Shown here one piece after another: positions 408 to 27,337 of a stretch of DNA of 36,195 bases. Position 1 is the stretch's first letter; each line of letters starts with the position of its first letter. The position numbers and the translations under genes are program-made. The stretch lies in assembly GCF_002287235.1 (NCBI RefSeq), contig NZ_LMVP01000257.1, positions 1 through 36,195 of the forward strand. Reading direction: 5' to 3'. This DNA comes from Methanosarcina spelaei. GTDB taxonomy: Archaea > Halobacteriota > Methanosarcinia > Methanosarcinales > Methanosarcinaceae. The notes under the pieces are model-generated. The model did not search any database, had not been told where the DNA came from, and saw nothing but the letters and a program-made list of their open reading frames with translations.

Positions 408-1139
408 ATGCCCGAGACTAAAAAAATTGAAAAAGTTAATGTCACTGACAACCAGAGTGAACTTAATAAGAAAAGTGTTGAAACAAAAGAAGTTAATGGA
501 AGATTCGATGCTCGTTCTAAAGAGTACGTTCAAAATAATGAAAGAAAAGGATTTAAATATGGAGCATCAGGCGATGGTTTAAAGAAAGAAGTTACTTCAG
601 AACGCCAACTTGAAAATAAAGAACAGGATTTGAAACAGGAATCAGAAAAGCAACTTGGAAATAAATCTGAAAAATTAAAGAAAGAAGTCACTCCAGAACG
701 CCAACTTGAAAATAAAGCTGAAAAAGCTGAAAAGACACGACCGGGTTGGAGTAATGATCAACAGAAGTATTTGCGACAAGTAGCTAAAATGAGTAGAGAA
801 GAAGCACAAAAACTCGGAATTCCTTCTAATATACATGGCTATTTGGTAAATGAGCGGGATCGGGCAAACAAAATGGCAAGATTGATCCGGAAAGAAGGTA
901 GCGTAGAAGCTGTGAAAAAGAAAATTCCAAATATAGAAACGACAAACAAAGGACTTCGTTCTCCTTTTAAAGGACAATATGATGTTGGACACAAGAAAGC
1001 GCATGTAATGGGTGGTTCGAACAAACTTGAAAATCTCAGATTTGAACTTGCTAGTGATAACCGAGCAAAGGGGCCGAGGGAGAGAATAGTTAACAACAAA
1101 ATAAAAGCAAGAAAAGAAGTGAATGATCCAGAAAACTGA
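408..1139 (+). CDS. Nuclease-like protein with HNH/toxin-type C-terminal domain
   Basis: A 243-residue, very basic and charged protein. Residues 1-120 are low-complexity Lys/Glu-rich sequence with an imperfect internal repeat (LKKEVTSERQLENK and LKKEVTPERQLENK). The last 60 residues look folded and carry a DVGHKKAHVMGG segment, then an ENLRFE stretch and SDNRAKG. This spacing of His, Gly-Gly, Asn and Asn-Arg is typical of HNH/endonuclease VII-like nucleases and of the GH-type nuclease domains at the C-terminus of polymorphic toxins. There is no signal peptide. The start has a strong ribosome binding site 4 nt upstream and a TATA box at a sensible distance. The gene stands alone, with no obvious immunity gene. 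The nuclease assignment rests on motif appearance only; a nucleic-acid-binding protein without catalysis is the alternative. Confidence 0.5.
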   Translation: MPETKKIEKVNVTDNQSELNKKSVETKEVNGRFDARSKEYVQNNERKGFKYGASGDGLKKEVTSERQLENKEQDLKQESEKQLGNKSEKLKKEVTPERQLENKAEKAEKTRPGWSNDQQKYLRQVAKMSREEAQKLGIPSNIHGYLVNERDRANKMARLIRKEGSVEAVKKKIPNIETTNKGLRSPFKGQYDVGHKKAHVMGGSNKLENLRFELASDNRAKGPRERIVNNKIKARKEVNDPEN

Positions 1140-2473: not shown

Positions 2474-3235
2474 ATGGGCAATAATGACAAGGAAGAGCCT
2501 CCTACTGGTCAAATAATGGTAGATGATGTATTTCCTGAAAATATAAAAGATGAAGTTGCCGATATAGTTACAAGCAACGAAGAAATCGAAGAGAGTTTGA
2601 TACTTGATGAGCCTCTCAATGGACCGAATGTCGAAAAGTGTACTGAAGAGGAACTCGAAAAAGCTGAAAATCTAAGCATCAGTAATAATGATATTTTGCA
2701 AAATATTACTGCCCTTTCGGCTAAAATAGACTCCCTTAATCAGCTCTTTTCCGAAAAAATACCGGATATGGAATATAAGGGAAAAATTATCGATCAAATG
2801 CATAAAGAGCTTCAGAAGTATAAGGATGACATTTACTCACAGGTTCTCAGACAAGTTCTTCTTGACATTATTGAAGTTAGAGACAGTATTTTGAGAATAA
2901 CCGATTTTTATCTCAAGAAGCCTGCAGGAGAACAGGATATTCCCAACGAAACTTTTGCAGGATATGCTCTTGACATTCAAGATATATTAGAGAAGAATGG
3001 CGTTGAAATATACGAAAGCAGCCCTGGAGATTCTTTTTCGCCGGTAAAACAGCGAGTAATTAAGAAGATTGTTACTGGAAACAGTGAACTACATGGTAAA
3101 GTTGCCGAGTCTTTAAGCTGTGGCTATGACTATAACGGAAGGACTATTTCTACAGAAAAAATTGCTGTTTATTATTATGAAGAGCCAGCCGAAATAATAA
3201 CAGAAGACAATACGGAGATGGTACAAAATGGCTAA
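2474..3235 (+). CDS. GrpE-like nucleotide exchange factor
   Basis: A 253-residue protein. Residues 1-70 are acidic and probably disordered. A coiled-coil region follows (about 75-125: LSAKIDSLNQLFSEKI and QMHKELQKYKDDIYSQ), then a helical part. The C-terminus matches the GrpE beta-domain pattern: GVEIYESSPGDSFSP, a spacer, then a CGYDYNGRTI segment and a closing hydrophobic strand. GrpE dimers release ADP from DnaK-type Hsp70s in the cytoplasm. The start has AAGGAGAT 7 nt upstream. The gene overlaps the next one, an Hsp70, by 8 bp, so the two are translationally coupled and the partner is clear. It is longer and more divergent than housekeeping GrpE, so it looks like a dedicated paralogue. 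The GrpE fold assignment is firm; activity on both Hsp70s of the cluster is inferred. Confidence 0.8.
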   Translation: MGNNDKEEPPTGQIMVDDVFPENIKDEVADIVTSNEEIEESLILDEPLNGPNVEKCTEEELEKAENLSISNNDILQNITALSAKIDSLNQLFSEKIPDMEYKGKIIDQMHKELQKYKDDIYSQVLRQVLLDIIEVRDSILRITDFYLKKPAGEQDIPNETFAGYALDIQDILEKNGVEIYESSPGDSFSPVKQRVIKKIVTGNSELHGKVAESLSCGYDYNGRTISTEKIAVYYYEEPAEIITEDNTEMVQNG

Positions 3236-4859
3236 ATATGTCTATGGAATTGATCTTGGTACGACATATTCATGTATTGCGTATGTTGACGAAAGTGGAA
3301 GGGCAAATGTTATTAAAAATTTAGAAGGAACAAATACCACCCCTTCTGTTGTTAATTTTGCAAGTCCCAATCAAGTTGTCGTAGGACAGGTGGCAAAGGA
3401 GACTGCCGTTATTGACCCTAAGAATACTGTATCACTAGTAAAAACATTGATGGGTAAAAGTAACTTTGCTATAAATTACAACCATGAAGATAAATCTCCT
3501 GAAGAAGTGTCGGCCTACATCTTGAGGAAGCTTGCAGAAGATGCGGCAAAGGAAATTGATGCAGAAGTAAAGGATGTAGTAATTACATGTCCTGCTTATT
3601 TTGGTACTGCTGAAAGAACAGCAACAAAGAATGCAGGAATAATTGCTGGCCTCAATGTGCTGGAGATTATTAGTGAGCCGGTTGCTGCAGCAATTTACTA
3701 TGGGTGCACTAAAGAACCTGAAGAAAAAACTATTCTTGTATATGATCTGGGGGGAGGAACTTTTGATGTTACTATCATGAGTATTAACTCCGAAAAAATT
3801 GAGATTATATGTTCTGACGGGGACCATGATTTAGGCGGAAAAGATTGGGACAGTGCAACCATGCGTTACCTTGCAGATGAATTTGCTTCTCAAAAATCAT
3901 ACAATGGGGATCTTGATGAATACGCACAGCAGGATCTTCGTTTGAAAGCTGAAAAAGCAAAACAGCAACTTTCTGCGAAAGAAAAAACTCCTGTTATAGT
4001 TGAGGCAGCTGGAGAAAGGGCAAGAATTGATTTTTCAAGAGAAAAATTCGATGAGATTACTTCTTCACTGTTAAATTCCACTATTACTAAGACTGATGCT
4101 GCTATTGCTGTGGCAGAACAACGCGGTTTTAAAGTAGATGAAATTCTTTTGGTTGGCGGTTCTACGAGAATGCCACAGGTAACCAGGGTGTTGGAGGAAA
4201 AATACCGCATAAAGCCTAAGATTCTTGAACCGGATGAAGCTGTTGCTAAAGGGGCTGCAATTAACGCTGTTAATGTTTACATCAACAACCAACCAACTTT
4301 GTCCAAATGGAATGAAGACAATAAAGGCAGTGTGACTTCCGATTCCGTTTTAGATCCATCTAATAGTGTTGAACAATTATCTGTTGACCCAGCGATGATG
4401 AGCATAGGTGGAAAAAAGCGTGCGATTGTTGTGGCTACAACTAAAAGTTTTGCTGTAGAAGCGATTGTAAATGAGGAGCCAAAATGTTGTAATATGATTA
4501 TCAAAAACAATTCTATGCCTGATGGTGTCATAACTGTTTCCCAGACATTTGGAACAGCCATTGCAAACCAGGAAACAGCCGAAATCGTTGTCTATGAAAG
4601 CGATTTCATGGACGAGTATTTTGATATTGATAAAGATTACGTAATTGGTACAGCGACCTTAGAATTACCGGACAACCTTCCTTCTGGTGCGCCAATTGAG
4701 ATAATATTAAGCCTTAATAGTGAAGGCATTTTGGAAGTCACTGGTAAAGATCTGAAAAGCAACAAAGAAATTCATGCAACTATGCAGTCAAAAAATATCA
4801 TGACCAGTGAAGAAGTTGAGGATTTAAGAAAAAAATCACAGCAAATGGTCTTGATGTAA
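3228..4859 (+). CDS. Hsp70 (DnaK-like) lacking the C-terminal lid
   Basis: A 543-residue Hsp70, against about 610-640 for usual DnaK. The ATPase domain is complete: phosphate-1 motif IDLGTTYS near residue 8, phosphate-2 motif VYDLGGGTFD at 171-180, and adenosine motif VGGSTR at 309-314. A low-complexity linker (about 350-395) joins it to a beta-sandwich substrate-binding domain (about 400-520). The chain ends at 543 after one short helix, so the alpha-helical lid that closes over bound peptide is missing. The linker has no clear conserved DnaK hydrophobic motif (VLLL-type), which could alter coupling between the domains. The gene overlaps the GrpE-like gene and lies upstream of a second Hsp70. 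It probably binds and releases client proteins in an ATP-dependent way with faster exchange than canonical DnaK, which is an inference from the missing lid. Confidence 0.9.
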   Translation: MAKYVYGIDLGTTYSCIAYVDESGRANVIKNLEGTNTTPSVVNFASPNQVVVGQVAKETAVIDPKNTVSLVKTLMGKSNFAINYNHEDKSPEEVSAYILRKLAEDAAKEIDAEVKDVVITCPAYFGTAERTATKNAGIIAGLNVLEIISEPVAAAIYYGCTKEPEEKTILVYDLGGGTFDVTIMSINSEKIEIICSDGDHDLGGKDWDSATMRYLADEFASQKSYNGDLDEYAQQDLRLKAEKAKQQLSAKEKTPVIVEAAGERARIDFSREKFDEITSSLLNSTITKTDAAIAVAEQRGFKVDEILLVGGSTRMPQVTRVLEEKYRIKPKILEPDEAVAKGAAINAVNVYINNQPTLSKWNEDNKGSVTSDSVLDPSNSVEQLSVDPAMMSIGGKKRAIVVATTKSFAVEAIVNEEPKCCNMIIKNNSMPDGVITVSQTFGTAIANQETAEIVVYESDFMDEYFDIDKDYVIGTATLELPDNLPSGAPIEIILSLNSEGILEVTGKDLKSNKEIHATMQSKNIMTSEEVEDLRKKSQQMVLM

Positions 4860-5052: not shown

Positions 5053-7167
5053 GTGGGTATTATAGTCGGAATTGACTTAGGTACAACTTTTAGTGCTGTT
5101 GCATGTATAGATAAGCAAACTGGAAAACCAGAAGTTATAAAAAATTGTTTTGGCAGTGTTATCACTCCTTCAGTTTTGTGTTTCGAGCCTGATGGGAATA
5201 TTTTGTATGGCCAAGACGCTAAAAATATGCAAGCGATGGGCGATACCAATACCGTTGCGTTTTTTAAACGTAGCATGGGTAAAGATATGTTTTCTGTAGA
5301 GATTAATGGAAAAACATATAATGCAACGGATTTCTCGGCCAAGCTTCTTGAAAAGATCAAGGAAGAAGCCGAATCACAAATCGGGGAGAAAATTGATGCT
5401 GCTGTTATAACTGTTCCTGCTTATTTTACTCATAAAGAGCGTGAAGCCACTATTGAAGCTGGCAAAAGAGCAGGGCTAGATGTCCTTTCAATTATTAATG
5501 AGCCTACTGCAGCGGCAATCGCATATGGCTTGAATGGCAAAGATGCAGAGCAAACTGTACTGATATATGACCTTGGGGGTGGTACATTCGATGTTACCAT
5601 TGCCCGTATCAATAAAGACGAAATTGATATCCTTGGTAGTGATGGCAACCATGAACTTGGTGGCAAAGATTGGGATGATTGTATAGCAAGATACCTGGTA
5701 GCTGAATTCCAAGAACGATATGGAATAGACTTAAGCGAGGATAGAGAAATGGTTGCCTCTTTATTGGTAACTGCTGAGAATGTAAAGAGGCAGCTAACAG
5801 CAAAAGACACTGTAAGAGTGCCCATTACCTATCAAAGTATTAAAGCTAATATTGAAATTACAGAAGACTTGTTTGAATCTATTTCACAATTTTTGTTAGG
5901 AACAACTAAAGAATTAACGGAAGGTTTAATCACTTCCCTCAATTTATCATGGAACAATATCGATGGTGTAATTCTTGTTGGCGGCTCCACAAGAATGAGA
6001 ATGGTTCATAAGTATGTTGAGAACATGTCTGGTAAACAGCCTCTTTCGGGTGTTAACGTGGACGAAGCTGTAGCTCTTGGAGCAGCAATCAAAGCCAATA
6101 CTGATGAGAAAGTGAATGTAGTTCCTTTGCTTGGCGGGTTAATGCATCGTCAAAAAACAAACAAACTGTGCATACAAGGCGCTAAAGCTGTGTTTGATGT
6201 TACAGCTCATTCTCTTGGAATGATATCTATTAGTCCTGATGGAGAAAAATACATTAACAGCATAATTATTAAGAAAAATAGTAAAGTTCCAGCAGAGAAT
6301 ACAAAATCATTTAAGTTTAAGACAAGAACTAAAAATAACGAACTTGAAGTATATATTTTGCAAGGTGAATTTGAAAGACCTTTAGATAATACGATTATCA
6401 ATAAATATGTAATAACAGACATCGAAAGAGTTTCCTCATCTACTTCTTTTATTGATGTAACATATCAATACACCTCTAATGGCGTTGTTGAAGTATCAGC
6501 GGTTCAACAAGAAAATCATAAAAAACTGCCAATTAGAATTGAGCCAATACCTGAAGATATGGATTGGACTGACAGGTCACCAAAAGATCAAGCTGGTAAC
6601 GTAGAGGCTCCGAGTGTTGAGATCATTTTAGCAGTTGATTTATCTGGAAGCATGTATGGCGAGCCAATTGAAAAAGCACAGCAAGCAATGCATGATTTTG
6701 TAGCCAAATTAGAAGAAGGTAACACCAAAATTGGCATTCTTGCATTTGCCAATAAAGTCAAATGTGTATTGCCGCTTGATGCCGATTTTTATAATGTTGA
6801 TAATGTAATATCAAAATTAAGTAGTGTGAAAGTAGGTATTGGAAATTCTGCAGAACCATTTACAACTGCTTTAACCCTGTTAAAAGGAAACCTTTCTGAA
6901 AATGAGAGCGAAGTATGCTACATTATTGTGCTTACTGATGGTGAGTGGTACCATCAGAAACGGGCAATAAGCGCAGCTAAGAAGTGTCATGAAGCAGGCA
7001 TAGAAATAATTGCATTGGGATTTGGAAAAGCAGACTATGAGTTTCTAAAACAAATTGCATCTGTAGATGAATTTGCTTCTATAACAAGTTTGACTGAACT
7101 ATCCGGTTCATTCTCTAAGATTGCTCAAGCAATCAGCGATTATGCGACTGGTTTGAAAGTAATGTAA
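5053..7167 (+). CDS. Hsp70-VWA fusion protein
   Basis: A 704-residue protein. Residues 1-350 are an Hsp70 ATPase domain with IDLGTTFS near residue 7, IYDLGGGTFD at 171-180 and VGGSTR at 309-314. Residues about 375-510 resemble an Hsp70 substrate-binding beta-sandwich (DVTAHSLGMISI, then ELEVYILQGEF). In place of the helical lid there is a VWA domain (about 522-700) with an intact metal-ion-dependent adhesion site: DLSGS at 529-533, Thr at 604/605, and Asp 629 in VLTDGEW. VWA domains bind protein partners through a metal ion held at this site. The start codon is GTG, chosen because GGAGG lies 8 nt upstream and because it gives the normal Hsp70 N-terminus. The next gene follows after 24 bp, so the two are probably cotranscribed. 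Both folds are clear; the client and the reason for the fusion are unknown. Confidence 0.9.
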   Translation: MGIIVGIDLGTTFSAVACIDKQTGKPEVIKNCFGSVITPSVLCFEPDGNILYGQDAKNMQAMGDTNTVAFFKRSMGKDMFSVEINGKTYNATDFSAKLLEKIKEEAESQIGEKIDAAVITVPAYFTHKEREATIEAGKRAGLDVLSIINEPTAAAIAYGLNGKDAEQTVLIYDLGGGTFDVTIARINKDEIDILGSDGNHELGGKDWDDCIARYLVAEFQERYGIDLSEDREMVASLLVTAENVKRQLTAKDTVRVPITYQSIKANIEITEDLFESISQFLLGTTKELTEGLITSLNLSWNNIDGVILVGGSTRMRMVHKYVENMSGKQPLSGVNVDEAVALGAAIKANTDEKVNVVPLLGGLMHRQKTNKLCIQGAKAVFDVTAHSLGMISISPDGEKYINSIIIKKNSKVPAENTKSFKFKTRTKNNELEVYILQGEFERPLDNTIINKYVITDIERVSSSTSFIDVTYQYTSNGVVEVSAVQQENHKKLPIRIEPIPEDMDWTDRSPKDQAGNVEAPSVEIILAVDLSGSMYGEPIEKAQQAMHDFVAKLEEGNTKIGILAFANKVKCVLPLDADFYNVDNVISKLSSVKVGIGNSAEPFTTALTLLKGNLSENESEVCYIIVLTDGEWYHQKRAISAAKKCHEAGIEIIALGFGKADYEFLKQIASVDEFASITSLTELSGSFSKIAQAISDYATGLKVM

Positions 7168-7191: not shown

Positions 7192-9966
7192 ATGAACGAT
7201 AACTGTTATTTGTTATTAGAGCTAGAGTTTGACCCTCCCGTGAAGGATCAAGCTGTTATAGATCAGAGAATTGAAGAAAAGGCTAAATTTTGGTCTACTA
7301 ATTCGAACCATTTTAAAAAAGGCGCAGAATACAAGACGTATCTTGAGATGCTCCCCGAGATAAAAAGGATAATGAGCGATCCTGTTAAGCGTAAAGAGGA
7401 AGCTGATTCTGCGTGCAGTATTGTATATAGTCCAATAGATCAAGATATAAAAATACTTGGTGCAACTGGGGAAATTGCCGAAGACATAATCGAAAATTAT
7501 GCAAATACAAAAAAGACACCTGTGAACGTGGTTAAAAAAAGAGTTTCTGCTCTTGGAATAAAAATTATCCAGAAGTTTGATTTCCAGATAACTTATGACA
7601 AGTATTATAAAAATAAACCTAAGAATGCTGAAACATTTGATGGCATGAAGACTTACCTTAAGCCATTTAATAAAGATGATTTTTACGCCTTCTTAAACCC
7701 CGGTACCATGCAGAACATGGACAAACTGCCATGTGATAAGCTCAAACAATTAGCGCAGGAAAAAAAGAAAAAAGAATTCTATAAAAACGATACTTACAGT
7801 AGTGCTGGTAAAAAAGTCTGTGAAGCCTGTGAACTGGCTTTCAAGGACGAAAGCAGTAAAACGATTTATGACGACTACTTAGCATGGTGTAAAAGAAGAA
7901 GTATTTTAGATAACGCAAAAGAAATTGCAAAGATCACAGACAAAAAAATGTCTGATGACCAAGGTGATATTTACATTGGGAAATTAACTGAGCTGCTTAA
8001 GGATAGAACACTGGCGGAAAATATTTTTATTTCCTTCTGTAAAATTGAGAAAATTGAATACAATCCAGATTTATATAATCCAGGCAAGAAAGAAGAGAAA
8101 GCAAGGAAAGAAGCTGAAGAGAAAGCAAGGAAAGAAGCTGAAGAGAAAGCAAGGAAAGAAGCTGAAGAGAAAGCAAGGAAAGAAGCTCAAGAGAAAGCAA
8201 GAGAAGAAGCTGAAAAGAAAGCAAGGGAAGAAGCTGAAAAGAAAGCAAAACATGATGCACTAAAAAAGTTAGCTATCGGGGCAATTCTATGTTTTCTGGC
8301 ACTAGGTGGAATTGCACTGATGAGCGGGAACGATGGAAGTCAATCTGAAGATCCACAAGCACCATATCAAACAATAGGCGATAGAGTAAATGGTACGAGT
8401 TCAGTTATAAATGGTTCAGAACAACCAGTACTCCCGGATGCCGACTTTTGGTCAGATATAACTTCCGGAGAAGCACCACTAAAGGTACAGTTTTTTGACG
8501 GGAGCACCGGCTCACCAACCTCCTGGAACTGGAACTTCGGGGATGGAGTTACTTCAACCAAGCAAAATCCAATACATACCTATACAACAGATGGAACTTA
8601 CACTGTGAAAGAGACTATAACCAATGAAATAGGTGAGGACCCCGAAATAAAAGAGAGTTATATCACTGTTACAGCTCCTGCAGAGACTCCAACTGCTGTT
8701 GTTCCAGTTCCTGATTTTTCTGCATCCGTAACTTCCGGAGAAGCACCTCTGACAGTCTCTTTTACTGATGAAAGCTCAGGATCTCCTACCGAATGGCAAT
8801 GGAATTTTGGAGACAGTCCTGATATCTTGACCGAGTATAATCCAACGCATACCTATACAAAAGCTGGAACTTATACAGTAACAGAGACTGTAACCAATGA
8901 AGCAGGTAAGGATACGGAAACAAAAACAAATTATATCACTATTACAGCTCCTCTGCAAACTCCAGATGCTGATTTTTCTGCATCCGTAACTTCAGGAGAA
9001 GCACCTCTGACAGTCTCTTTTACTGATGACAGCTCAGGATCACCAAATGCATGGCAATGGAATTTTGGAGACAGTTCTGATATCTTGACCAAGTATAATC
9101 CAACGCATACCTTTACAAAAGCTGGAACTTATACAGTAACAGAGACTGTAACCAATGAAGCAGGTAAGGATACGGAAACAAAAACAAATTATATCACTGT
9201 TACAGCTCCTGAAAGTACTGACATTTCATCCCAGTCTACAGAAACTGCTATACCTGATACTGCATCTCAATCCACAGTAATTGCTCCAGTTCCTGATTTT
9301 TCTGCTTCCGTAACTTCAGGAGAAGCGCCTCTGACAGTTACTTTTATTGACGAAAGTACAGGGTCACCAAATGAATGGAAATGGAACTTTGGAGACGGAT
9401 CTCCGATAATAGACGGAACTACTTCAGCTTATAAGAATCCGACGCATACCTATGTAAAAGCTGGAATTTATGATGTGAAAGAGACAGCAATTAATTCAGC
9501 TGGTAAAAACACAAAGACAAAATCAAGTTATATCACTGTTACAGCCTCTGAAAGTACTGACACAGCATCCGATAACACAGGGACTTCAGGTACTGGCACA
9601 GAATCCAATAACATAGAGACTGGTTCAAGCACTGCCACTTTGTCTCGATCCACAGAAACTGGTTCAGATACTAGTACAGCAACAGATATCACAAGTCTTC
9701 CCACCAAATCTGAAGTATTAACATTTGTAAATGATTATAAAGGGGGAAGCGACTTTATAGAAACTGTTTCAGGAGATTCGGAATCTTATCATCCTGAGTG
9801 GAAATGGGATATATGGCAAGATCAGTACGGAAATATATTGATAAGCTTCTACTACTACCAAAATAATTCCAAAGGATATGAAAGCACCTATTTTGACAGC
9901 GAAGGAAACATAATTTCAACAAAGGATTTGGAGTTAACATTGGTGGATAGTTACAAAGGATCTTAA
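7192..9966 (+). CDS. Membrane co-chaperone-like protein: J-like domains, coiled coil, TM helix, four PKD domains
   Basis: A 924-residue protein. Residues 1-75 follow the outline of a J-domain (start NCYLLLELEFDPP, end EIKRIMSDPVKRKEEAD), but the HPD tripeptide that stimulates Hsp70 is absent. A second J-like stretch lies around 165-235 (it ends FKDESSKTIYDDYLAW). Residues 298-350 are an eight-residue repeat, EKARKEAE, forming a charged helix. One membrane helix follows (about 358-380, LAIGAILCFLALGGIAL). Four PKD domains come next (about 417-497, 505-587, 589-673, 699-786), each with the W-NFGDG-type core. A Ser/Thr-rich stretch and a C-terminal domain of about 85 residues end the protein. 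There is no N-terminal signal, so the J-like part should be cytoplasmic and the PKD part outside. It sits 24 bp after the Hsp70-VWA gene and probably brings the Hsp70s to the membrane. Without HPD it may recruit rather than activate. Confidence 0.75.
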   Translation: MNDNCYLLLELEFDPPVKDQAVIDQRIEEKAKFWSTNSNHFKKGAEYKTYLEMLPEIKRIMSDPVKRKEEADSACSIVYSPIDQDIKILGATGEIAEDIIENYANTKKTPVNVVKKRVSALGIKIIQKFDFQITYDKYYKNKPKNAETFDGMKTYLKPFNKDDFYAFLNPGTMQNMDKLPCDKLKQLAQEKKKKEFYKNDTYSSAGKKVCEACELAFKDESSKTIYDDYLAWCKRRSILDNAKEIAKITDKKMSDDQGDIYIGKLTELLKDRTLAENIFISFCKIEKIEYNPDLYNPGKKEEKARKEAEEKARKEAEEKARKEAEEKARKEAQEKAREEAEKKAREEAEKKAKHDALKKLAIGAILCFLALGGIALMSGNDGSQSEDPQAPYQTIGDRVNGTSSVINGSEQPVLPDADFWSDITSGEAPLKVQFFDGSTGSPTSWNWNFGDGVTSTKQNPIHTYTTDGTYTVKETITNEIGEDPEIKESYITVTAPAETPTAVVPVPDFSASVTSGEAPLTVSFTDESSGSPTEWQWNFGDSPDILTEYNPTHTYTKAGTYTVTETVTNEAGKDTETKTNYITITAPLQTPDADFSASVTSGEAPLTVSFTDDSSGSPNAWQWNFGDSSDILTKYNPTHTFTKAGTYTVTETVTNEAGKDTETKTNYITVTAPESTDISSQSTETAIPDTASQSTVIAPVPDFSASVTSGEAPLTVTFIDESTGSPNEWKWNFGDGSPIIDGTTSAYKNPTHTYVKAGIYDVKETAINSAGKNTKTKSSYITVTASESTDTASDNTGTSGTGTESNNIETGSSTATLSRSTETGSDTSTATDITSLPTKSEVLTFVNDYKGGSDFIETVSGDSESYHPEWKWDIWQDQYGNILISFYYYQNNSKGYESTYFDSEGNIISTKDLELTLVDSYKGS
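8083..8254 (+). repeat. 24-bp in-frame tandem repeat coding for EKARKEAE
   Basis: About seven copies of a 24-bp unit (GAGAAAGCAAGGAAAGAAGCTGAA) lie inside the membrane co-chaperone-like gene. They encode a charged eight-residue repeat expected to form a rigid single helix just before the membrane span. Copy number could change by slippage without breaking the frame. Confidence 0.85.
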
Positions 9967-12137: not shown

Positions 12138-12191
12138 ATGGTGAACACAATGAATGGGGAAAAACTCTCTAAGGTGGGTGGCGTGGGATGA
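12138..12191 (+). CDS. Possible 17-residue leader peptide overlapping the next start
   Basis: An ORF of 17 codons (MVNTMNGEKLSKVGGVG) ends at TGA 12189-12191, overlapping the ATG of the next gene in an ATGA arrangement. This overlap is typical of translationally coupled genes. It might be a genuine leader peptide, or the first exon-like piece of a frameshifted longer N-terminus. No family can be assigned. Confidence 0.3.
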   Translation: MVNTMNGEKLSKVGGVG

Positions 12192-14059
12192 CGTTTACCC
12201 AGTATTCCGATATTTATGTCGCGGTAAGGGATACCGGTATCACTCGTATCCTTTCCCATGTTATGGCACAGCGGCCATCGCTCTTTAACTATGGGTCGAC
12301 TCTTCCTGTAACTGGGCCCTGGCCAATCTGCTTGGACATTCGCACAGTGCCACAGGTAGTACAGGCAAACAATCCATTGATAACCGTGATGAACCCTTTA
12401 CCTGTTATCCAGACTCCAATTACTCTTGACTATATCATCCAGTTAACTAAAGGAACTGTAGACTTTTTCCCTGGAAGCGCTTTGAGTCTTCCAGTAGAAA
12501 TGAATTCTCCTCTCAGAAACCAGCAGTTTGCGGTCAACTTTGATGTATGTGCCGGCCTCATCTGCCAGTCCGGAAAAAGCATTTTACCTCTTACTAGCAG
12601 CATAACGAAAGAAGATACCATCGACATAACGAAAGAAGATACCATCGACATAACGAAAGAAGATACCAGCAACATAACGAAAGAAGATACCAGCAACATA
12701 AAGAAGGAAAAGGAAAGTATCGAATGCGTTTGTCTAAATCTCTTTGCGACCGGTGGTTGCGAGATCGTTGGCGTGCCAGGGAAGCAAAATATATCGATGA
12801 AGATATCCGGCATAGAGATCCCTGAACTTAAATCCGACAGCCTGGAGAAGATAATTAAGTGTTATTCTCTCTTCACCTTGAACCAGGGAATTCTACCCAA
12901 GATAACAGATGCAATCTCAGCACTCGTTTTCAATGCCATCAGTCTTCCTAAAAGCCTGGGTAGCCTTACTTTCTCGGCATCAACTGCAGTCCCCTATAAT
13001 CCGGCTGTAGAAGATAATCAGTTAAAACTTTTTGTCAACCTAGAAAATATTGCGCTCGACCTGCCTCCTTTAGGGCCATCTTCCTCTGAAAACGAGTCTC
13101 CTGAAACCGTCACAAGGACAAGTAGATTGAGAAGTAGAAAAGGAGCCTTTGACTTCAGTGCTGCTATTTCCGCAGACGCATTCGAAAGAATCTTCACTGC
13201 CGTTGTAAAGGAGTTCCGATTCTTAAAATCAGGAACTGATAACTATAGCTCGTTTTCAGTTAACTATGATGTGATGGCGCATCTGGAAGGCGGTTCAGTG
13301 GAGACAAGGGACGACGGTATAATTGTGATCAAGGAATTGAATGTCATATGGGACAAATTCAAACTCAATATCGGGATAGATATCCCCAAAATTTCTGTGG
13401 GGGGCGGTGAGGTTTGTGTAAATCCACCGTATCCTTCCTGCAAAGTCCCGATCGTGGGATGCAAGAAGTGCGTAACTCTCCCCTCATACAGTTTCTTCAG
13501 CGGCAGTCCGGACATTACCGTTCCAGTAGATTTAAGTGGGATTATCACCTCGGAGCTGGTCTTCAATACGCAGTTAGAGACATTCTATGGAATCGGCTCA
13601 GGGACGCCAAACCGGTGGCAGATTGCTTTCGTTCCGACCCTGCCTTCCGATCTCTACATTACCAATATCGCCGATAGTGTAGGAGATCTCTTCAGAAGCC
13701 GCATGAAGCACGCGATCGACGATCTTCTTAGCTCTTCAAAAGCGCCTGAACCGGCGATCAAACTTGTATCTGAGATTCTGGGTGGGATTGACAACATCAT
13801 GCGGAATATAATTAATATTCCGGACGATATCGGAAAATGGTTCATTGATATGATCCAGCACATCGGAATCGTCAGAACTTTACTTAACGATCTTTATGAC
13901 TACCTTACCTTCAAGATTCCGGCAGCGTTCGAGATCGAAGATCCTTTCCAGGTTCTTAAACCTGCCAGTAACATGATACCGGTGAAGATTCCAATTGAAT
14001 TTATCAGGGTTAGTGTGAACTCCCATGAGATCACGATTGAAGGGGATGTGGGAGATTGA
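12188..14059 (+). CDS. Large protein of unknown function with a repeat insert
   Basis: A 623-residue protein that I do not recognise. It has no signal peptide or clear membrane helix. The N-terminus (SDIYVAVRDTGITRILSHVM) and later parts are amphipathic beta/helix patterns with many Pro, Ile and Leu. Residues about 137-172 are a tandem insert, DITKEDT/NITKEDTS, encoded by 24-bp repeats, which splits an otherwise ordinary sequence and is probably a surface loop. A Cys-rich stretch lies near 418-435 (VCVNPPYPSCKVPIVGC, then KKC), and there are Cys pairs near 124-130 and 180. The alternation of long hydrophobic strands could fit a lipid-binding or pore-type fold, but this is a guess. The start has a G-rich stretch and overlaps a possible leader peptide. 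It stands alone, divergent from the tlyA-like operon. Confidence 0.7.
   Translation: MTFTQYSDIYVAVRDTGITRILSHVMAQRPSLFNYGSTLPVTGPWPICLDIRTVPQVVQANNPLITVMNPLPVIQTPITLDYIIQLTKGTVDFFPGSALSLPVEMNSPLRNQQFAVNFDVCAGLICQSGKSILPLTSSITKEDTIDITKEDTIDITKEDTSNITKEDTSNIKKEKESIECVCLNLFATGGCEIVGVPGKQNISMKISGIEIPELKSDSLEKIIKCYSLFTLNQGILPKITDAISALVFNAISLPKSLGSLTFSASTAVPYNPAVEDNQLKLFVNLENIALDLPPLGPSSSENESPETVTRTSRLRSRKGAFDFSAAISADAFERIFTAVVKEFRFLKSGTDNYSSFSVNYDVMAHLEGGSVETRDDGIIVIKELNVIWDKFKLNIGIDIPKISVGGGEVCVNPPYPSCKVPIVGCKKCVTLPSYSFFSGSPDITVPVDLSGIITSELVFNTQLETFYGIGSGTPNRWQIAFVPTLPSDLYITNIADSVGDLFRSRMKHAIDDLLSSSKAPEPAIKLVSEILGGIDNIMRNIINIPDDIGKWFIDMIQHIGIVRTLLNDLYDYLTFKIPAAFEIEDPFQVLKPASNMIPVKIPIEFIRVSVNSHEITIEGDVGD
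12597..12705 (+). repeat. 24-bp in-frame tandem repeat coding for DITKEDTI/NITKEDTS
   Basis: About four and a half copies of a 24-bp unit (ACATAACGAAAGAAGATACC plus 4 more bases) lie inside the large hypothetical gene. The length is a multiple of three, so copy-number change keeps the frame. Confidence 0.9.
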
Positions 14060-20422: not shown

Positions 20423-23400
20423 ATGAAAAATATTGTTATTAAAGGGGCACGGGAACATAACCTGAAAAACATCACGGTGGAACTCCCGCGGGACAAACTA
20501 ATTGTTATTACAGGGGTATCAGGCTCAGGGAAATCCACCCTGGCTTTTGACACGGTTTATGCCGAAGGGCAGCGGCGCTATGTGGAGTCACTCTCAGCTT
20601 ATGCACGGCAGTTCCTCGGGCTTATGAACAAGCCGGATGTTGACAGCATTGAGGGGTTATCTCCGGCAATTTCAATTGAGCAGAAAACGACCTCGAAAAA
20701 TCCCAGGAGTACGGTTGGGACAGTCACTGAAATTTATGACTACATGAGGCTGCTTTTTGCAAGGGTAGGCACACCTTACTGCCCTACTCACAACATAAAA
20801 ATCGAGTCGCAGTCCCCTGAAAGGATTGCGGACAGCCTGAACAGGGAATGTGAGGGCATGATTACAATTCTCGCGCCTGTAGTCCGGCAGAAAAAAGGAA
20901 CATACCAGCAGCTTTTCAGGGAACTTAACAGCGAAGGTTTCGCCCGCATGAGGGTAAACGGTGAGATTCACAGGACTGACGACGAAATTACCCTTGACCG
21001 TTACAAAAAGCATGATATTGAAGTCGTTATTGACCGTCTGGACCCCTCAGAGGATCGTTCCAGACTTGTCGAGGCCTGTGAAAATGCCCTCCAGAAAGCA
21101 GACGGGCTCTTAATTGCGGTTGATTCGGAAGGAAAAGACCACCTTTATTCCTCAAACATGGCATGTCCGGTCTGCGGCATGGCTTTTGAAGAACTTCAGC
21201 CCAGGATGTTTTCCTTCAACAGTCCTTTCGGGGCCTGTGAAGCCTGTAACGGGCTCGGGATCAAGATGGAGTTCGACCCTGACCTCATTATTCCGGATAA
21301 AAAGCTCTGCCTCGCAGACGGAGCTGTCGCTCTGTATAGGAATTACCTGGACAGTTATCGGAGCCAGCATCTGGCAGCTGTGGCAAAGCATTTTGGTTTT
21401 GATATTTTTACTCCAATTGAGGCTCTCACAGATGAGCAGTATAATGCGCTTATGTACGGCTCGGACGAACTCATGCAGTTCAGCATGAGCATGAAAAACG
21501 GGGACGCTCACTGGTCTCATAAAGGAACATGGGAAGGGCTGCTTCCGCAATCCGAGAGGCTATACAGCCAGACAAAATCCGAATATCGCCGAAAAGAACT
21601 TGAAAAATTCATGCAGGTCAAATCCTGCCCGAAATGCGAAGGTAAGCGTCTCAAGGAAAAAGTGCTTGCAGTAAAGCTCGGTGGAAAGTCTATTGTAGAT
21701 GTAACAAATCTCTCAATTCTGGAATGCATTCGATTTTTTGAAAATGCGGAACTCTCGGAAAAGGAAAGAGAGATCGCAAAGCAGGTCTTAAAGGAAATCC
21801 GCTCAAGGCTTGGCTTTTTAGAGCATGTAGGGCTCGGTTATCTTACCCTTTCGAGAGGTGCAGGCACTCTCTCAGGCGGAGAAGCCCAGCGAATCCGGTT
21901 GGCTACCCAGATTGGCTCAAACCTTATGGGCGTGCTCTATGTGCTCGACGAACCTTCGATAGGGCTGCACCAGAGAGACAACGAACGGCTTATCCAGACT
22001 CTTCAGACCTTGCGGGACCTTGGAAACACCCTGATAGTCGTGGAACATGATGAGGATACTATTAGGGCTGCGGACTATGTGCTCGATGTAGGTCCGGGTG
22101 CAGGCGTGCATGGTGGTTATGTAGTAGCCGAAGGCACACCTGAAGAGATCGAAAAAAATCCGGAATCCCTTACAGGCCAGTACCTCTCAGGAGAAAAACA
22201 GATAAATCCGCCTGCTCTTCGCCGGCGTAGTGACGCATTCATAAGGCTTAAAGGATGCAGGGCGAACAACCTGAAGGACATAGACGTGAATATTCCCATA
22301 GGGGTCCTGACCGTAGTTACAGGTGTTTCAGGTTCAGGAAAGTCCACGTTAGTTTACGATACCCTGTACAAAGCTTTGACAAAGAAAATAAACAAATCAA
22401 GTGTAACACCAGGGGACTATGACGAGCTGGTTTTCGATTCAGAAATCGACAAGGTAATCGTTATTGACCAGAGCCCTATTGGCAGGACTCCTCGCTCGAA
22501 CCCTGCTACTTATACCAAGGTTTTTGATTCCATAAGGCAGGCTTTTGCCGATACTAAAGAAGCCAAGATCCGGGGATATAAAAACGGACGTTTCTCCTTC
22601 AACGTAAAAGGAGGGCGTTGTGAAGCCTGCCAGGGAGACGGGCTGATAAAAATCGAAATGAATTTCCTGCCTGATGTTTACATTGAATGTGAGGAATGCA
22701 AGGGCACACGCTACAACCGGGAAACCCGAGAGGTAAAATACAGGGGTAAGTCGATTGCAGAAGTCCTGGATATGACCGTTGAAGAGGCTGCCGAACATTT
22801 TGAGAATATTCCTGGAATCAAAAACAAACTCGACACTTTAACAAGAGTCGGGCTGGGCTATATCAAACTAGGCCAGAGCTCAACAACGCTTTCAGGCGGG
22901 GAAGCCCAGAGGATCAAACTGACAAGGGAACTCTCCAAAAAATGTACCGGAAAAACGATTTACCTCCTTGATGAGCCCACAACCGGGCTTCATTTCCATG
23001 ACGTTAAAAAACTTGTAGCAGTTCTCAACAGGCTTGTTGCAAAAGGAAACACTGTGGCTGTGATAGAGCATAACCTGGATGTAATTAAATCCGCAGACTA
23101 TATCATCGACCTTGGTCCCGAAGGCGGGAACGCAGGCGGAGAAATTATTGCCGAAGGAACCCCGGAGGAAGTGTCCACGGTTCAGGGGAGCCACACTGCC
23201 CGTTTCCTTGCTCCCAAGCTTTCAGCGTCATATCTTGGTATGTCGGGAGAAGAGTCCATAGAGGCTGTTTTCGAAGAAGGAGAGGAATTTGAGGCCAACT
23301 CTGATGAAGTTGAAGACGATATGTACGGGGATTCCGAAGACTTTGAGGAAGATTCTGAAGAAGACTTTGAAGAAGACTCTGAAAACTCCAGAGATTTCAA

Positions 23401-23449
23401 GCATAACAAACACAGGACAGATAAAGCACTTGGAGAGCAGTTTATTTAA
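20423..23449 (+). CDS. uvrA: Excinuclease ABC subunit A
   Basis: UvrA recognises distorted DNA with UvrB and starts nucleotide excision repair. The 1008-residue protein has two ABC ATPase modules: Walker [10 protein letters not shown] at 31-39 and again at 634-642, and signature LSGGEAQR at 483-490 and 823-830. Zinc-binding cysteines are present in both modules (CPVCG with CEACNG, and CEACQG with CEECKG). The last 70 residues are a highly acidic tail ([18 protein letters not shown]), an addition to the usual length of about 940. The start has GAGAAGGAAA just before it. uvrC follows after 52 bp and uvrB after that, all on one strand. Archaeal UvrABC is generally regarded as acquired from bacteria. 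All key residues are present, so it should be active. Confidence 0.98.
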
Positions 23450-23501
23450 AACGAGTTTAAGCTCCCTTTAAAGACTTGAAACTTGAACAAGAGGTTTAAA
23501 A

Positions 23502-25061
23502 ATGATTGACCTGGAGGCTCTTCCTCACCTACCTGGCTGTTACCTTTTCAAGAATGAAGAGGGGACTGTGATTTACGTGGGCAAGGCAAAGGACCTCAAA
23601 AAGCGGGTAAGCAGCTACTTCCAGAAAAGAGATCACGACCCAAAAACAGCTAGCCTTATGGAAGCTGTAAGGGGCCTTGATTTTATTGTCACGAACACGG
23701 AAGTAGAGGCTTTCCTTCTGGAAAACACCCTTATTAAGAAACACTGGCCAAGGTACAATATTCTTCTAAAGGACTCAAAGCGATATGCCTGCATTCACTT
23801 AACAGAAGAAAAGTTTCCAAGGATCAGGCTTGCCCGGAAAAGGATAGACAGTGGAAATTTTTTTGGGCCGTTTGTCTCGGCAAAGGAAAGAGATTACATT
23901 TTTGAGGTTGTAAGAAAGACCTTTCAGCTCCGGACCTGCAAACAGATGCCGAAACGGGCCTGTCTCAGATACCATATAGCGGCATGTAGCGGGCCCTGCA
24001 TAGGTGCAATTTCCACGGAAGACTATGCCGAGAAAGTTAAAAAAGCTGCTTCTGTTCTTAAAGGCAATATCAAAGAGCTCATAGAATCCATGGAAACAGA
24101 GATGAAGGAACTGGCATCAAGACAGCAATTCGAGCAAGCCATATCTCTAAGGGATGAGATTGCAGCCCTTGAATACCTTCAGGAAAAACAAAACATGGAG
24201 AGGCAGAAAAAGCATAACGAGGACATCCTGAACTATATTGTCAGGGATGATACAGTTTATCTCATGCTCTTCAAGGTTTACAAAGGCACGCTTGAGGATA
24301 AGCAGGACTATGTTTTTGCCTTCGGGGAAAATTTCCTGGAGGAATTCCTGGTGCAATATTATTCCGAGAACGAGCCGCCTGAAGAACTTATCCTGCCCGA
24401 ATCGCTTGAAGAGTCATTTGTTGATTTCCTCTCTCATGTCAAGGGAACAAAAGTTAAAGTCACGGTTCCGAAACAGGGAGAGAAAAAAGAACTTCTCGAC
24501 CTTGTTCTGAAAAATGTTGAGATTGGCTTTTTCGGAGACCGGAAAAAGCTTGAAGCCCTGCAGAGTAAATTATCCCTTCCAAAACTTCCTAATGTCATAG
24601 AATGTTTTGATATTTCCCATCTCTCAGGCACGGCTACGGTCGGTTCAATGGTTCAGTTCCGTGGGGGTAGACCCGATAAACACAATTATCGCCGCTTCAA
24701 GATCGAGAGCGTTGAAGGGATTGATGACTTCGCTTCCATTGCCGAGGTTGTACGCAGGCGTTATTCCCGCTTGATTGAGGACAAACACGACCTGCCTGAC
24801 TTGATCATTATAGATGGAGGAAAAGGGCAGCTCTCTTCAGCTTTTCAGGAACTCAGGAAGCTCAAAATCAGGGTTCCTCTTATCTCGATAGCAAAAAGGG
24901 AAGAAGAAATCTATGTGCCTGGAATTAAGTCCCCTCTTCCCATCAAAAAAAATGAGAAAGCCTCACTTTTTGTCCAGGAAATCCGGGACGAAGCTCACAG
25001 GTTCGCAATTACCTACAACCGTTTGCTGAGGCAAAAATCAATGATTCCTAAAAATGATTGA
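23502..25061 (+). CDS. uvrC: Excinuclease ABC subunit C (short form)
   Basis: UvrC makes both cuts around a lesion marked by UvrB. The 519-residue protein has an N-terminal GIY-YIG nuclease (about 10-90, GCYLFKNEEGTVIYVGKAK) for the 3' cut, a Cys cluster typical of UvrC (CKQMPKRACLRYHIAACSGPC), a UVR domain (about 195-235) that contacts UvrB, and the RNase H-like nuclease for the 5' cut, with Asp370 in CFDISH and Asp438 in IIIDGGKGQ. Bacterial UvrC is about 600 residues and ends in a double helix-hairpin-helix domain; this protein stops at about the end of the nuclease (RRLLRQKS-type ending) and lacks it. The start has AGAGGT 10-15 nt upstream. The lack of the DNA-binding tail may alter the 5' incision on some substrates. 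Confidence 0.97.
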   Translation: MIDLEALPHLPGCYLFKNEEGTVIYVGKAKDLKKRVSSYFQKRDHDPKTASLMEAVRGLDFIVTNTEVEAFLLENTLIKKHWPRYNILLKDSKRYACIHLTEEKFPRIRLARKRIDSGNFFGPFVSAKERDYIFEVVRKTFQLRTCKQMPKRACLRYHIAACSGPCIGAISTEDYAEKVKKAASVLKGNIKELIESMETEMKELASRQQFEQAISLRDEIAALEYLQEKQNMERQKKHNEDILNYIVRDDTVYLMLFKVYKGTLEDKQDYVFAFGENFLEEFLVQYYSENEPPEELILPESLEESFVDFLSHVKGTKVKVTVPKQGEKKELLDLVLKNVEIGFFGDRKKLEALQSKLSLPKLPNVIECFDISHLSGTATVGSMVQFRGGRPDKHNYRRFKIESVEGIDDFASIAEVVRRRYSRLIEDKHDLPDLIIIDGGKGQLSSAFQELRKLKIRVPLISIAKREEEIYVPGIKSPLPIKKNEKASLFVQEIRDEAHRFAITYNRLLRQKSMIPKND

Positions 25062-25142
25062 TCCAAAAATTCCAGAGTCAAAAAGATCGATTCTAAAAAT
25101 CTCAATTGCAAAAAAATCCCAAATTGCAAAAATGTCAATTCC

Positions 25143-25214
25143 AAAAACGTCAATTTCAAAACGTCAATTCCAAAACGTCAATTCCAAAACGTCAATTCCA
25201 AAACGTCAATTCCA
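25143..25214. repeat. 14-bp tandem repeat between uvrC and uvrB
   Basis: Unit AAAACGTCAATTCC, about five copies, the last four nearly identical; looser A-rich relatives extend back to the uvrC stop. It fills most of the 263-bp gap between uvrC and uvrB. The short frame running through it is a product of the repeat and not a gene. Confidence 0.85.
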
Positions 25215-25324
25215 AAAATCCCATATTCCTGAAAATTGTTGACTCCTGAAAATCATTAATTGGTTACTGATACTGTTGATATATGTCCATCTTTAAATCT
25301 CCATAATTTTAAGGTCTTGATTCT

Positions 25325-27337
25325 ATGAATTCTTCTGATCAAACATCACAGCCATCGTCTCAAAAAGTATTTGAAACACTACGAGATTCCCGATACTGGA
25401 ACAGCCCTCAGTTCAAGCTGGTTTCCGATTTCGAACCCAAGGGTTCCCAGCCGCAGGCAATCGAAAAACTTGTGGAGGGGCTCAAAAAAGGGGAGCAACA
25501 CCAGACCCTGCTTGGGGTAACAGGGTCAGGAAAAACCTATACTGTTGCAAACGTTATAAACCAGATCAAAAAACCGACCCTTGTTATTGCTCATAATAAA
25601 ACCCTTGCCGCCCAACTTTATAATGAGTTCATGGAGTTCTTCCCTGAAAACAGGGTAGAGTATTTTGTTTCTTATTACGATTATTATCAGCCAGAGTCCT
25701 ATCTTCCTACCAAGGACCAGTATATTGAAAAGGATGCCCAGATTAACCCGAAAATCGAGCAGATGCGTCTTGCTGCTACTGCTTCCCTGATGTCTCGCCA
25801 TGATGTTATTGTAGTTGCATCCGTGTCCTGCATCTACGGTCTTGGCAATCCTGAAAATTTCCAGAAAATGGGGTTTGAATTAAAGGTGGGAGATAAGGTT
25901 CAGAGAAAAGAGATCCTGCAAAAACTTGTTGAAATCCTGTTCGAGCGGAATGATCTTGAGCTCATGCCAGGACGCTTCAGGGTAAAAGGGGACACAATTG
26001 ACATTATTCCCGGATATTTTGATAATATTATCCGGATTGAACTATTCGGAGACGAGATAGACAGGATTTCCGAGGTGGACAAACAGGCCGGACAGAGAAC
26101 AGAAGACATGGATTATTTCTTTGTTTATCCTGCCAGGCACTATGTAATTCCTGAGGAAGAGCAGAAAAGTGCAATCCAGTCCATTTTCAAAGAGCTCGAA
26201 GAACACCTTCCTGAGCTTGGGCTTCTTGAATCTCACAGGTTGAAGCAGCGCACGCTTTATGATATGGAAATGATTCAGGAAACCGGTAGCTGTAAAGGTA
26301 TTGAAAATTATTCGCGGCACTTTGACCACAGACAACCAGGAGAACAGCCCTTCTGCCTGCTTGACTATTTCCCTGAGGATTTTCTGCTTGTCATTGATGA
26401 GAGCCACCAGACTATCCCGCAGCTTCACGGCATGTACAATGGGGACCGCTCAAGAAAGAAGAGCCTTGTAGATTATGGGTTCAGGCTTCCGAGTGCCTAC
26501 GATAACAGGCCTCTGAAGTTCGATGAATTCGAGAAATACATGAAAAACGTGATTTTTGTTTCGGCAACTCCGGCAGACTATGAACGCGAGCATTCAGCCC
26601 AGATTGTGGAACAGATCATCCGCCCTACAGGGCTTGTTGACCCTGAGATTGAAATTCGTCCCCTCGAAGGACAGGTCAGGGATGTTATGCAGGAGATCAG
26701 GAAAATTGTGGAAAGGGGAGACCGCGCCCTTGTGACTACCCTGACAAAGAAGCTTGCGGAAGAACTTACCGAATACCTTGCCAGAAACGAAATCAAAGCT
26801 CGCTACCTGCATTCGGACATTAAAACCATAGAACGGACCGAAATAATTCGCGAACTTCGCCTTGGAAAATTCGATGTCCTTGTAGGGATTAACCTGCTCA
26901 GGGAAGGTCTCGATATTCCGGAAGTAGGTTTCATTGGCATCCTGGATGCGGATAAGGAAGGTTTCCTGAGAAACTCAAAAAGCCTGATTCAGATCATAGG
27001 CCGTGCTGCACGGAACGCCAGCTCGAAGGTTGTCCTGTATGCCGACAATATGACCGATTCCATCAAAAGTGCCGTTAATGAGACAGAGCGCCGCCGCTCC
27101 ATGCAGATTGCCTATAATACGGAACACGGAATCGTTCCGACAACTATCAGGAAACCCATTAGAGAAAAAGTCGTGGATATCACCGACACCAAACACATCC
27201 CTAAAACCGATATTCCCAATATGATTATCGAACTGGAAACCGAAATGAGGGAAGCTGCCGACAGGCTGGACTTCGAACGGGCAATCCAGGTAAGGGAAAT
27301 GATGAAGAAGCTGGAAAAAGAGATAAAAGTAGTCTGA
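25325..27337 (+). CDS. uvrB: Excinuclease ABC subunit B
   Basis: UvrB is the DNA-damage-verifying helicase-like subunit that is loaded by UvrA and recruits UvrC. The 670-residue protein is of normal length. It has Walker A GVTGSGKT from residue 64, the beta-hairpin region with Tyr residues (YFVSYYDYYQPESYLP) that clamps the strand, the Walker B/DExH-like motif IDESH (Asp358), and helicase motifs V and VI (GINLLREGLDIPEV and QIIGRAARN). It ends with a UVR domain (about 634-668, LDFERAIQVREMMKKLEKE) that binds UvrC. The gene follows uvrC after a 263-bp gap holding a tandem repeat, so it may have its own promoter (no clear box). A weak AAGGT lies 9-13 nt before the start. Confidence 0.98.
   Translation: MNSSDQTSQPSSQKVFETLRDSRYWNSPQFKLVSDFEPKGSQPQAIEKLVEGLKKGEQHQTLLGVTGSGKTYTVANVINQIKKPTLVIAHNKTLAAQLYNEFMEFFPENRVEYFVSYYDYYQPESYLPTKDQYIEKDAQINPKIEQMRLAATASLMSRHDVIVVASVSCIYGLGNPENFQKMGFELKVGDKVQRKEILQKLVEILFERNDLELMPGRFRVKGDTIDIIPGYFDNIIRIELFGDEIDRISEVDKQAGQRTEDMDYFFVYPARHYVIPEEEQKSAIQSIFKELEEHLPELGLLESHRLKQRTLYDMEMIQETGSCKGIENYSRHFDHRQPGEQPFCLLDYFPEDFLLVIDESHQTIPQLHGMYNGDRSRKKSLVDYGFRLPSAYDNRPLKFDEFEKYMKNVIFVSATPADYEREHSAQIVEQIIRPTGLVDPEIEIRPLEGQVRDVMQEIRKIVERGDRALVTTLTKKLAEELTEYLARNEIKARYLHSDIKTIERTEIIRELRLGKFDVLVGINLLREGLDIPEVGFIGILDADKEGFLRNSKSLIQIIGRAARNASSKVVLYADNMTDSIKSAVNETERRRSMQIAYNTEHGIVPTTIRKPIREKVVDITDTKHIPKTDIPNMIIELETEMREAADRLDFERAIQVREMMKKLEKEIKVV

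Follow-up and report, generated by a model that had tools for sequence, protein, structure and literature searches.

A conserved Hsp70-VWA fusion in Methanosarcina and its relation to predicted GAP1-N2 operons

Current models of how Hsp70 chaperones hold their clients give the C-terminal lid a central role. In Methanosarcina spelaei, one gene encodes an Hsp70 in which a VWA domain stands where the lid should be, raising the questions of whether such a fusion is genuine, where it comes from and what an Hsp70 might do with a module of this kind. The stretch of DNA analyzed here, referred to as the window, comprises 36,195 nucleotides and is an entire contig (NZ_LMVP01000257.1) of a 5.09-Mb Methanosarcina genome. 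Protein domains, conserved residues, a predicted structure, related loci and gene neighborhoods were compared, and the resulting picture was set against chaperone and conflict systems described in the literature.

Architecture of the Hsp70-VWA protein

The gene, its domains and its predicted metal site (MIDAS) are located as follows.

5053..7167 (+): Hsp70-VWA fusion, 704 aa; GTG start behind GGAGG, TAA stop
5053..6102 (+): nucleotide-binding domain (NBD), residues 1–350; D8, K72, P122, R130, E150, D173, T178 and D180 conserved
6187..6552 (+): substrate-binding beta-domain (SBD-beta), residues 379–500; model pLDDT mostly >85; D382 invariant
6616..7140 (+): VWA domain, residues 522–696, in the position of the SBD-alpha lid; PF00092, E = 2.4e-20
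6637..6651 (+): predicted MIDAS motif 1, D529-L-S531-G-S533; D, S and S invariant in 21/21 sequences
6844..6846 (+): predicted MIDAS middle position, Asn598; Thr in about half of the family
6937..6939 (+): predicted MIDAS Asp629 (LTDGEW); invariant in 21/21 sequences

In the Pfam scan this open reading frame matched HSP70 (E = 9e-114) and VWA (E = 2.4e-20), bearing out the coordinates, frame and two-part architecture given in a preliminary description of the locus. Copies with 95–96% identity occur in the same operon of two further Methanosarcina genomes, one of them a two-contig assembly, which rules out an assembly artefact; identity to the copy in the same-genus genome G101 is 96%. Pyrrolysine read-through into the next gene was also ruled out, because the stop codon is TAA.

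An AlphaFold model of the protein was obtained (pLDDT 85.5, pTM 0.69, 21 sequences), in which the placement of the VWA domain relative to the rest is unreliable. Residues 1–499 of the model fit ATP-state BiP and DnaK at 2.0–2.2 Å (Z about 48–49) and, as modeled, consist of the NBD and SBD-beta with the SBD-alpha lid absent. The DnaK/BiP match is confined to these residues and the VWA domain starts at about residue 522, so the earlier placement of this domain in the lid position stands. A short linker, of low confidence at residues 515–517, precedes the VWA region, where strands and helices alternate. No solved structure combining Hsp70 and VWA was present among the listed structural matches, and the comparison barely covered the VWA part.

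Conservation of nine residues (D8, K72, P122, R130, E150, D173, T178, D180 and D382) extends to every aligned relative that covers them. From what is known of DnaK, we take these to serve ATP hydrolysis, the proline switch (P122/R130) and the linker aspartate (D382). The three ATPase motifs first reported as intact are indeed so, with D8, K72, E150, D173, T178 and D180 kept in every relative covering these positions. D382 aligns with the Asp of the LLLD linker of DnaK; the corresponding linker reads AVFD in the fusion and xI[RQ]D in many of its relatives. Canonical DnaK shares the NBD and SBD-beta fold and about 40% identity with the fusion but carries an SBD-alpha lid and the LLLD linker, and the change from LLLD to AVFD may alter NBD–SBD coupling. 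The SBD core LQGE is present in the fusion and missing from the second Hsp70 of the operon. Judged by sequence and model, the fusion belongs to the Hsp70 family in having an NBD with catalytic residues and an SBD-beta, without the lid, and its peptide binding is putative.

The metal site called for a partial correction. It had been described as complete, with DLSGS, Thr604/605 and Asp629 as its elements. DLSGS (529–533) and D629 are invariant in all 21 aligned sequences, whereas Thr604 and Thr605 both occupy variable positions and were rejected as metal ligands. The middle position is instead residue 598, within a G[T/N]xxxP pattern, where the 21 sequences contain ten Asn, ten Thr and one Gly; two unrelated control VWAs in the alignment have Thr in the corresponding loop. 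Compared with a VWA domain carrying a complete DxSxS...T...D MIDAS, the fusion thus has DxSxS and the distal Asp and lacks the middle Thr, so that its predicted metal site is DxSxS...N...D, a T-to-N variant in this branch. This replacement may affect metal affinity.

Operon partners, distribution and descent

The genes flanking the fusion that bear on its function are listed below.

408..1139 (+): 243-aa protein, possible HNH/EndoVII-type nuclease
2474..3235 (+): GrpE-like nucleotide exchange factor; PF01025, E = 2.3e-10; overlapped by 8 bases by the next gene
3228..4859 (+): partner Hsp70, 543 aa; PF00012, E = 3e-105; NBD motifs intact, SBD-beta diverged, lid absent
7192..9966 (+): J-like membrane protein, 924 aa; four PKD domains, PKD_4 E = 1e-65

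The 924-aa protein is composed of an HPD-less J-like domain (residues 1–78), a helical region, a charged coiled coil, one predicted transmembrane (TM) helix at about residues 360–380 (hydropathy maximum 2.36 at residue 360) and the four PKD domains. For a model of residues 1–318, J domains took each of the 17 best-ranked places in the structural comparison (Z up to 7.9 over 69/70 residues); in Foldseek by itself, the match was not significant. The HPD motif was absent from the J region of this protein and of its relatives, two of which read HPT, and the usual ATPase stimulation may therefore not occur. Zinc ribbons and FN3-like parts characterize the bacterial J-like relatives examined, in which no comparable TM peak was seen. 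With its J-like domain, coiled coil, TM helix and PKD region, the protein at 7192–9966 is a possible membrane-spanning Hsp70 tether. Elsewhere in the window, uvrA, uvrC and uvrB are clustered at 20423–27337 in this archaeal genome, and a 623-aa protein at 12188–14059 gave no Pfam match at all.

Hsp70-VWA is present in only 3 of 112 Methanosarcinaceae genomes, and a full-length fusion with 49% identity was found in a genome of the phylum sample (G329). Scanning genome contigs yielded at least 20 loci with the whole SBD and VWA stretch, at least 19 of them outside Methanosarcina; altogether, fusion loci beyond the window number at least 23, including Methanosarcina and another methanogen family. 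Among the matches listed, the taxa include Clostridia, Treponema, Lentisphaerota, Aminicenantes, Thiotrichaceae, Methanoplasma and others. Of 341 Clostridia genomes sampled, three contained the fusion and 16 had GAP1-N2 above the cut-off; two of the three fusion-bearing genomes also have GAP1-N2, and in the remaining one, G641, a GAP1-like gene falls short of the Pfam threshold. The preliminary description had proposed a domain-architecture search and regarded a widespread, already characterized fusion as counting against its reading: the fusion proved widespread, and no experimental characterization of it was found. The viral contigs contained no relative and the plasmids no full-length one, and the J-like N-terminus likewise drew a blank in plasmids; a viral or plasmid origin was rejected on this basis, with the reservation that these collections may lack one.

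In the phylogenetic tree, Hsp70-VWA proteins form one clade (100/100), separate from DnaK, which constitutes a third group, and from the partner Hsp70s. The latter cluster together, with a base that is weakly supported owing to one long row (L107) and reaches 100/99 without it. The fusion arose once. In the Hsp70-VWA and partner subtrees alike, Methanosarcina pairs with Ruminococcus flavefaciens (68% identical) as its sister, and a member of the Lachnospiraceae comes next. This branching indicates a transfer in which the donor was of Clostridia type; the Methanosarcina version is derived and was probably acquired from a Ruminococcus-like bacterium. Among the three Methanosarcina copies, dN/dS is 0.16–0.18 over the whole gene and 0.13–0.23 over the VWA part, with 0.12 for the partner Hsp70. 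Hsp70-VWA, including its VWA domain, is under purifying selection, and the lid swap has been kept across large evolutionary distances.

Outside Methanosarcina, the usual operon reads GTPase, GrpE, Hsp70, Hsp70-VWA, J/FN3 protein, GTPase and GAP1. The order in G329 is TM-GTPase, GrpE, Hsp70, Hsp70-VWA, J/ZnR protein, GTPase (PF19993) and GAP1 (PF20013, E = 1e-24), and this plan is seen again in bacteria. Nearly every locus with flanking sequence has a J-like gene downstream of the fusion, and DO-GTPases, GrpE and a partner Hsp70 occur at most fusion loci. A GAP1-like gene is found at 15 of the 21 loci outside Methanosarcina, three of the remaining six being cut by a contig end.

These operons, with a predicted role in defence or competition, correspond to the "GAP1-N2 GTPase-centric conflict systems" with an HSP70/GrpE theme, predicted from genomics in Kaur 2020 (PMC7159879), whose main text names HSP70, GrpE, a second HSP70 without a peptide-binding domain and DnaJ-FNIII, and makes no mention of an HSP70-vWA fusion. 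The two share GrpE, Hsp70 and a J-like/FNIII protein, together with DO-GTPases and GAP1 in the non-Methanosarcina relatives; GAP1 and DO-GTPase were each found in G329 and in R. flavefaciens. The non-Methanosarcina fusion operons and the predicted GAP1-N2 systems are the same system, and the fusion very probably descends from a component of such GAP1-N2/Hsp70 operons. An NBD-only Hsp70 of 375 aa (L146, 12845–13972, - strand), which shares its operon with an Hsp70-VWA gene, matches the "HSP70 sans peptide-binding domain" of Kaur 2020. No experiments on GAP1-N2 systems were found in the searchable literature, where the prediction by Kaur is the only in-depth treatment found.

The Methanosarcina form and its variable gene slot

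Relative to the GAP1-N2 systems described in PMC7159879, the Methanosarcina locus lacks the GTPases and GAP1, and PKD replaces FNIII. GAP1 with the N2 domain was not found in the source genome, and DO-GTPase (PF19993) was absent from four Methanosarcina genomes. The locus does conform to the theme of GrpE, Hsp70 and a J-like repeat protein (theme 2), the repeats being PKD rather than FNIII.

A HerA-type ATPase of 1045–1053 aa (PF01935, E = 8e-16) lies upstream of the operon in G077, G101 and G104, and in G000 it is found at the end of contig C528. Across the genus, this ATPase occurs in 5 of 31 genomes, four with the operon plus G100, in which it is interrupted and no Hsp70 operon was found. 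At the G100 locus (L147, contig 149, 5282–8425), the ATPase is split into two ORFs with one in-frame TAG counted, for which pyrrolysine or decay is possible.

Between HerA and GrpE lies a variable gene. In G077 it encodes a colicin-DNase/WHH nuclease (PF12639/PF14414), in G104 a long repeat protein ending in YDLGH...DNRGRG, and in the window and G101 a 243-aa protein with a similar end. The 243-aa protein has a charged, repeat-rich N-terminus and a C-terminal stretch YDVGHKKAHVMGG...LRFELASDNRAKG, and its C-terminus shows weak similarity to the G104 protein of the same slot (E = 0.005); it gave no Pfam match and no useful PHROGs match, and no immunity ORF was recognized between 1139 and 2474 of the window. 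In R. flavefaciens, GAP1 is followed by HerA, a transglutaminase-like protein, another gene, a WHH nuclease and a SUKH immunity protein. HerA follows GAP1 in one member of the Lachnospiraceae too, where a second HerA–WHH–SUKH trio lies downstream of MoxR, DUF5682 and VWA_CoxE. The HerA/WHH/SUKH set stands behind both Hsp70-VWA/GAP1-N2 and MoxR-VWA operons (L122, 11924–18074; L124, 2198–14696), as though it served ATPase-VWA systems as an interchangeable effector module. Outside Methanosarcina, 15 genomes were reached via loci, and strong HerA relatives turned up in just three of them, one without the fusion at its locus, so the effector link applies to one part of the family.

G104 has kept GrpE, Hsp70, J-PKD and HerA, yet its Hsp70-VWA gene is deleted, indicating that the remainder can persist without the fusion. 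A deletion scar is visible at L039 (9839–10182), where the last ~60 bases of Hsp70-VWA precede the J-PKD gene. A suspected frame-shift in the J gene of G101 was rejected, the ORF being interrupted by a run of N.

Possible function and significance

The operon context, comprising GrpE, a lid-less Hsp70, a J-like protein, HerA and a nuclease-like gene, is more telling on function than the fusion alone. We give about an even chance to the reading that the protein is a dedicated, non-housekeeping Hsp70, with an ATP-driven NBD and SBD-beta body and a VWA adaptor that replaces the lid and grips a partner. Through its metal site, the VWA domain would hold a peptide, extended or acidic, belonging to one particular partner. 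As ATP is bound, hydrolyzed and, with the help of GrpE, exchanged, SBD-beta would shift and take the VWA domain along with it, so that the gripped partner would be held, remodeled or released. In doing so, the fusion would cooperate with the second lid-less Hsp70, GrpE and the J-like protein, which in Methanosarcina is predicted to be membrane-anchored with its PKD domains outside. The ancestral setting is very probably the predicted GAP1-N2 GTPase-centric conflict system, from which the Methanosarcina form has dropped the GTPases and GAP1.

The fusion may be viewed as an analogue of a MoxR ATPase and its VWA co-chaperone, with an Hsp70 motor and both halves in one chain. In studied MoxR-VWA pairs, according to PMC7159879, the VWA protein captures a substrate peptide and the ATPase cycle changes and releases the substrate. 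The MoxR-vWA ternary systems and pairs of the RavA-ViaA type likewise combine an ATPase chaperone with a vWA adaptor, and in the bacteria examined the HerA–WHH–SUKH trio adjoins both kinds. Their motor, however, is a hexameric AAA+ with a separate adaptor, whereas the fusion has an Hsp70 motor of the actin-type fold with the adaptor fused to it; the resemblance is one of working mode only, not of membership. The original suggestion, that the VWA domain may select the client or bind a partner in an ATP-controlled way, agrees with this analogy and with the gene context. We put at just under an even chance the proposal that the domain grips a partner in a metal-dependent manner and in step with ATP. 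Because a HerA/FtsK-type ATPase and a variable nuclease-like gene adjoin the Methanosarcina operon, this effector module would be the likely client or regulated partner, although control of effectors by the fusion is a tentative proposal that we regard as somewhat doubtful. A more elaborate version, in which the lid is a metal-dependent clamp that, with the HerA-type ATPase and the membrane J-like protein, would hold, arm or deliver variable nuclease effectors, is quite unlikely.

CoCoNuT systems offer a further comparison. Their Hsp70-like protein CnuD combines HEAT repeats with degenerate ATPase motifs and has McrBC partners, and HerA-superfamily ATPases near VWA proteins were noted earlier in these systems (PMC11090510). 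CnuD shares an Hsp70-like NBD/SBD with the fusion and belongs to systems that also have VWA proteins and HerA-superfamily ATPases; its ATPase motifs are degenerate (PMC11090510), unlike the intact ATPase residues of Hsp70-VWA. With these active-site residues intact and no McrB/DUF2357 among the window proteins scanned, CoCoNuT membership was rejected.

Alternatively, the VWA domain could be a scaffold that docks the fusion permanently on another component (the partner Hsp70, the J-like protein, a GTPase or GAP1), its metal site being structural. Such a role, which we consider unlikely, would accord with the nearly constant partner set and with the variable middle MIDAS residue, a variation not obviously compatible with a finely tuned metal switch. 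Yet the invariance of D, S, S and D across several phyla exceeds what a mere scaffold needs, and Methanosarcina kept the metal residues after losing the GTPases and GAP1, which leaves only Hsp70, GrpE, J or the effector as the dock. The grouping of GrpE, Hsp70 and a J-like protein, with catalytic residues intact, would also suit an additional set of general chaperones, paralogous to DnaK/GrpE/DnaJ and used under stress, in which the VWA domain is a minor add-on. This is very improbable, given that the source genome already has a canonical 617-aa DnaK beside DnaJ-like and GrpE-like genes, that so few Methanosarcinaceae carry the fusion, that the J-like protein lacks HPD and neither Hsp70 has a lid, and that the neighbors are those of conflict systems.

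A remaining account, specific to Methanosarcina, sees a decaying remnant: a GAP1-N2 system gained by horizontal transfer that is disappearing after the loss of its core. The missing GAP1 and DO-GTPases, the Hsp70-VWA deletion in G104 and the interrupted HerA without an Hsp70 operon in G100 all lean that way. Against it, the low dN/dS of both Hsp70 genes, the four intact window genes and a J gene equipped with its own TM and PKD region make decay improbable. The partner-gripping, dedicated Hsp70 remains our preferred reading.

The fusion is real, conserved and widespread, and its surrounding system is known from prediction alone. In the searchable literature, neither the exchange of the lid for a VWA domain nor the Methanosarcina form, free of GTPases and next to a HerA/nuclease module, appears to have been described. 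A natural family with this swap makes it possible to test directly whether a foreign adaptor can be driven by Hsp70 allostery, and it provides a tractable entry point into GAP1-N2 systems. It also joins Hsp70 and MoxR systems under one scheme, an ATPase plus a VWA domain, and, if true, a metal-clamp lid on Hsp70 would constitute a new class of chaperone motor.
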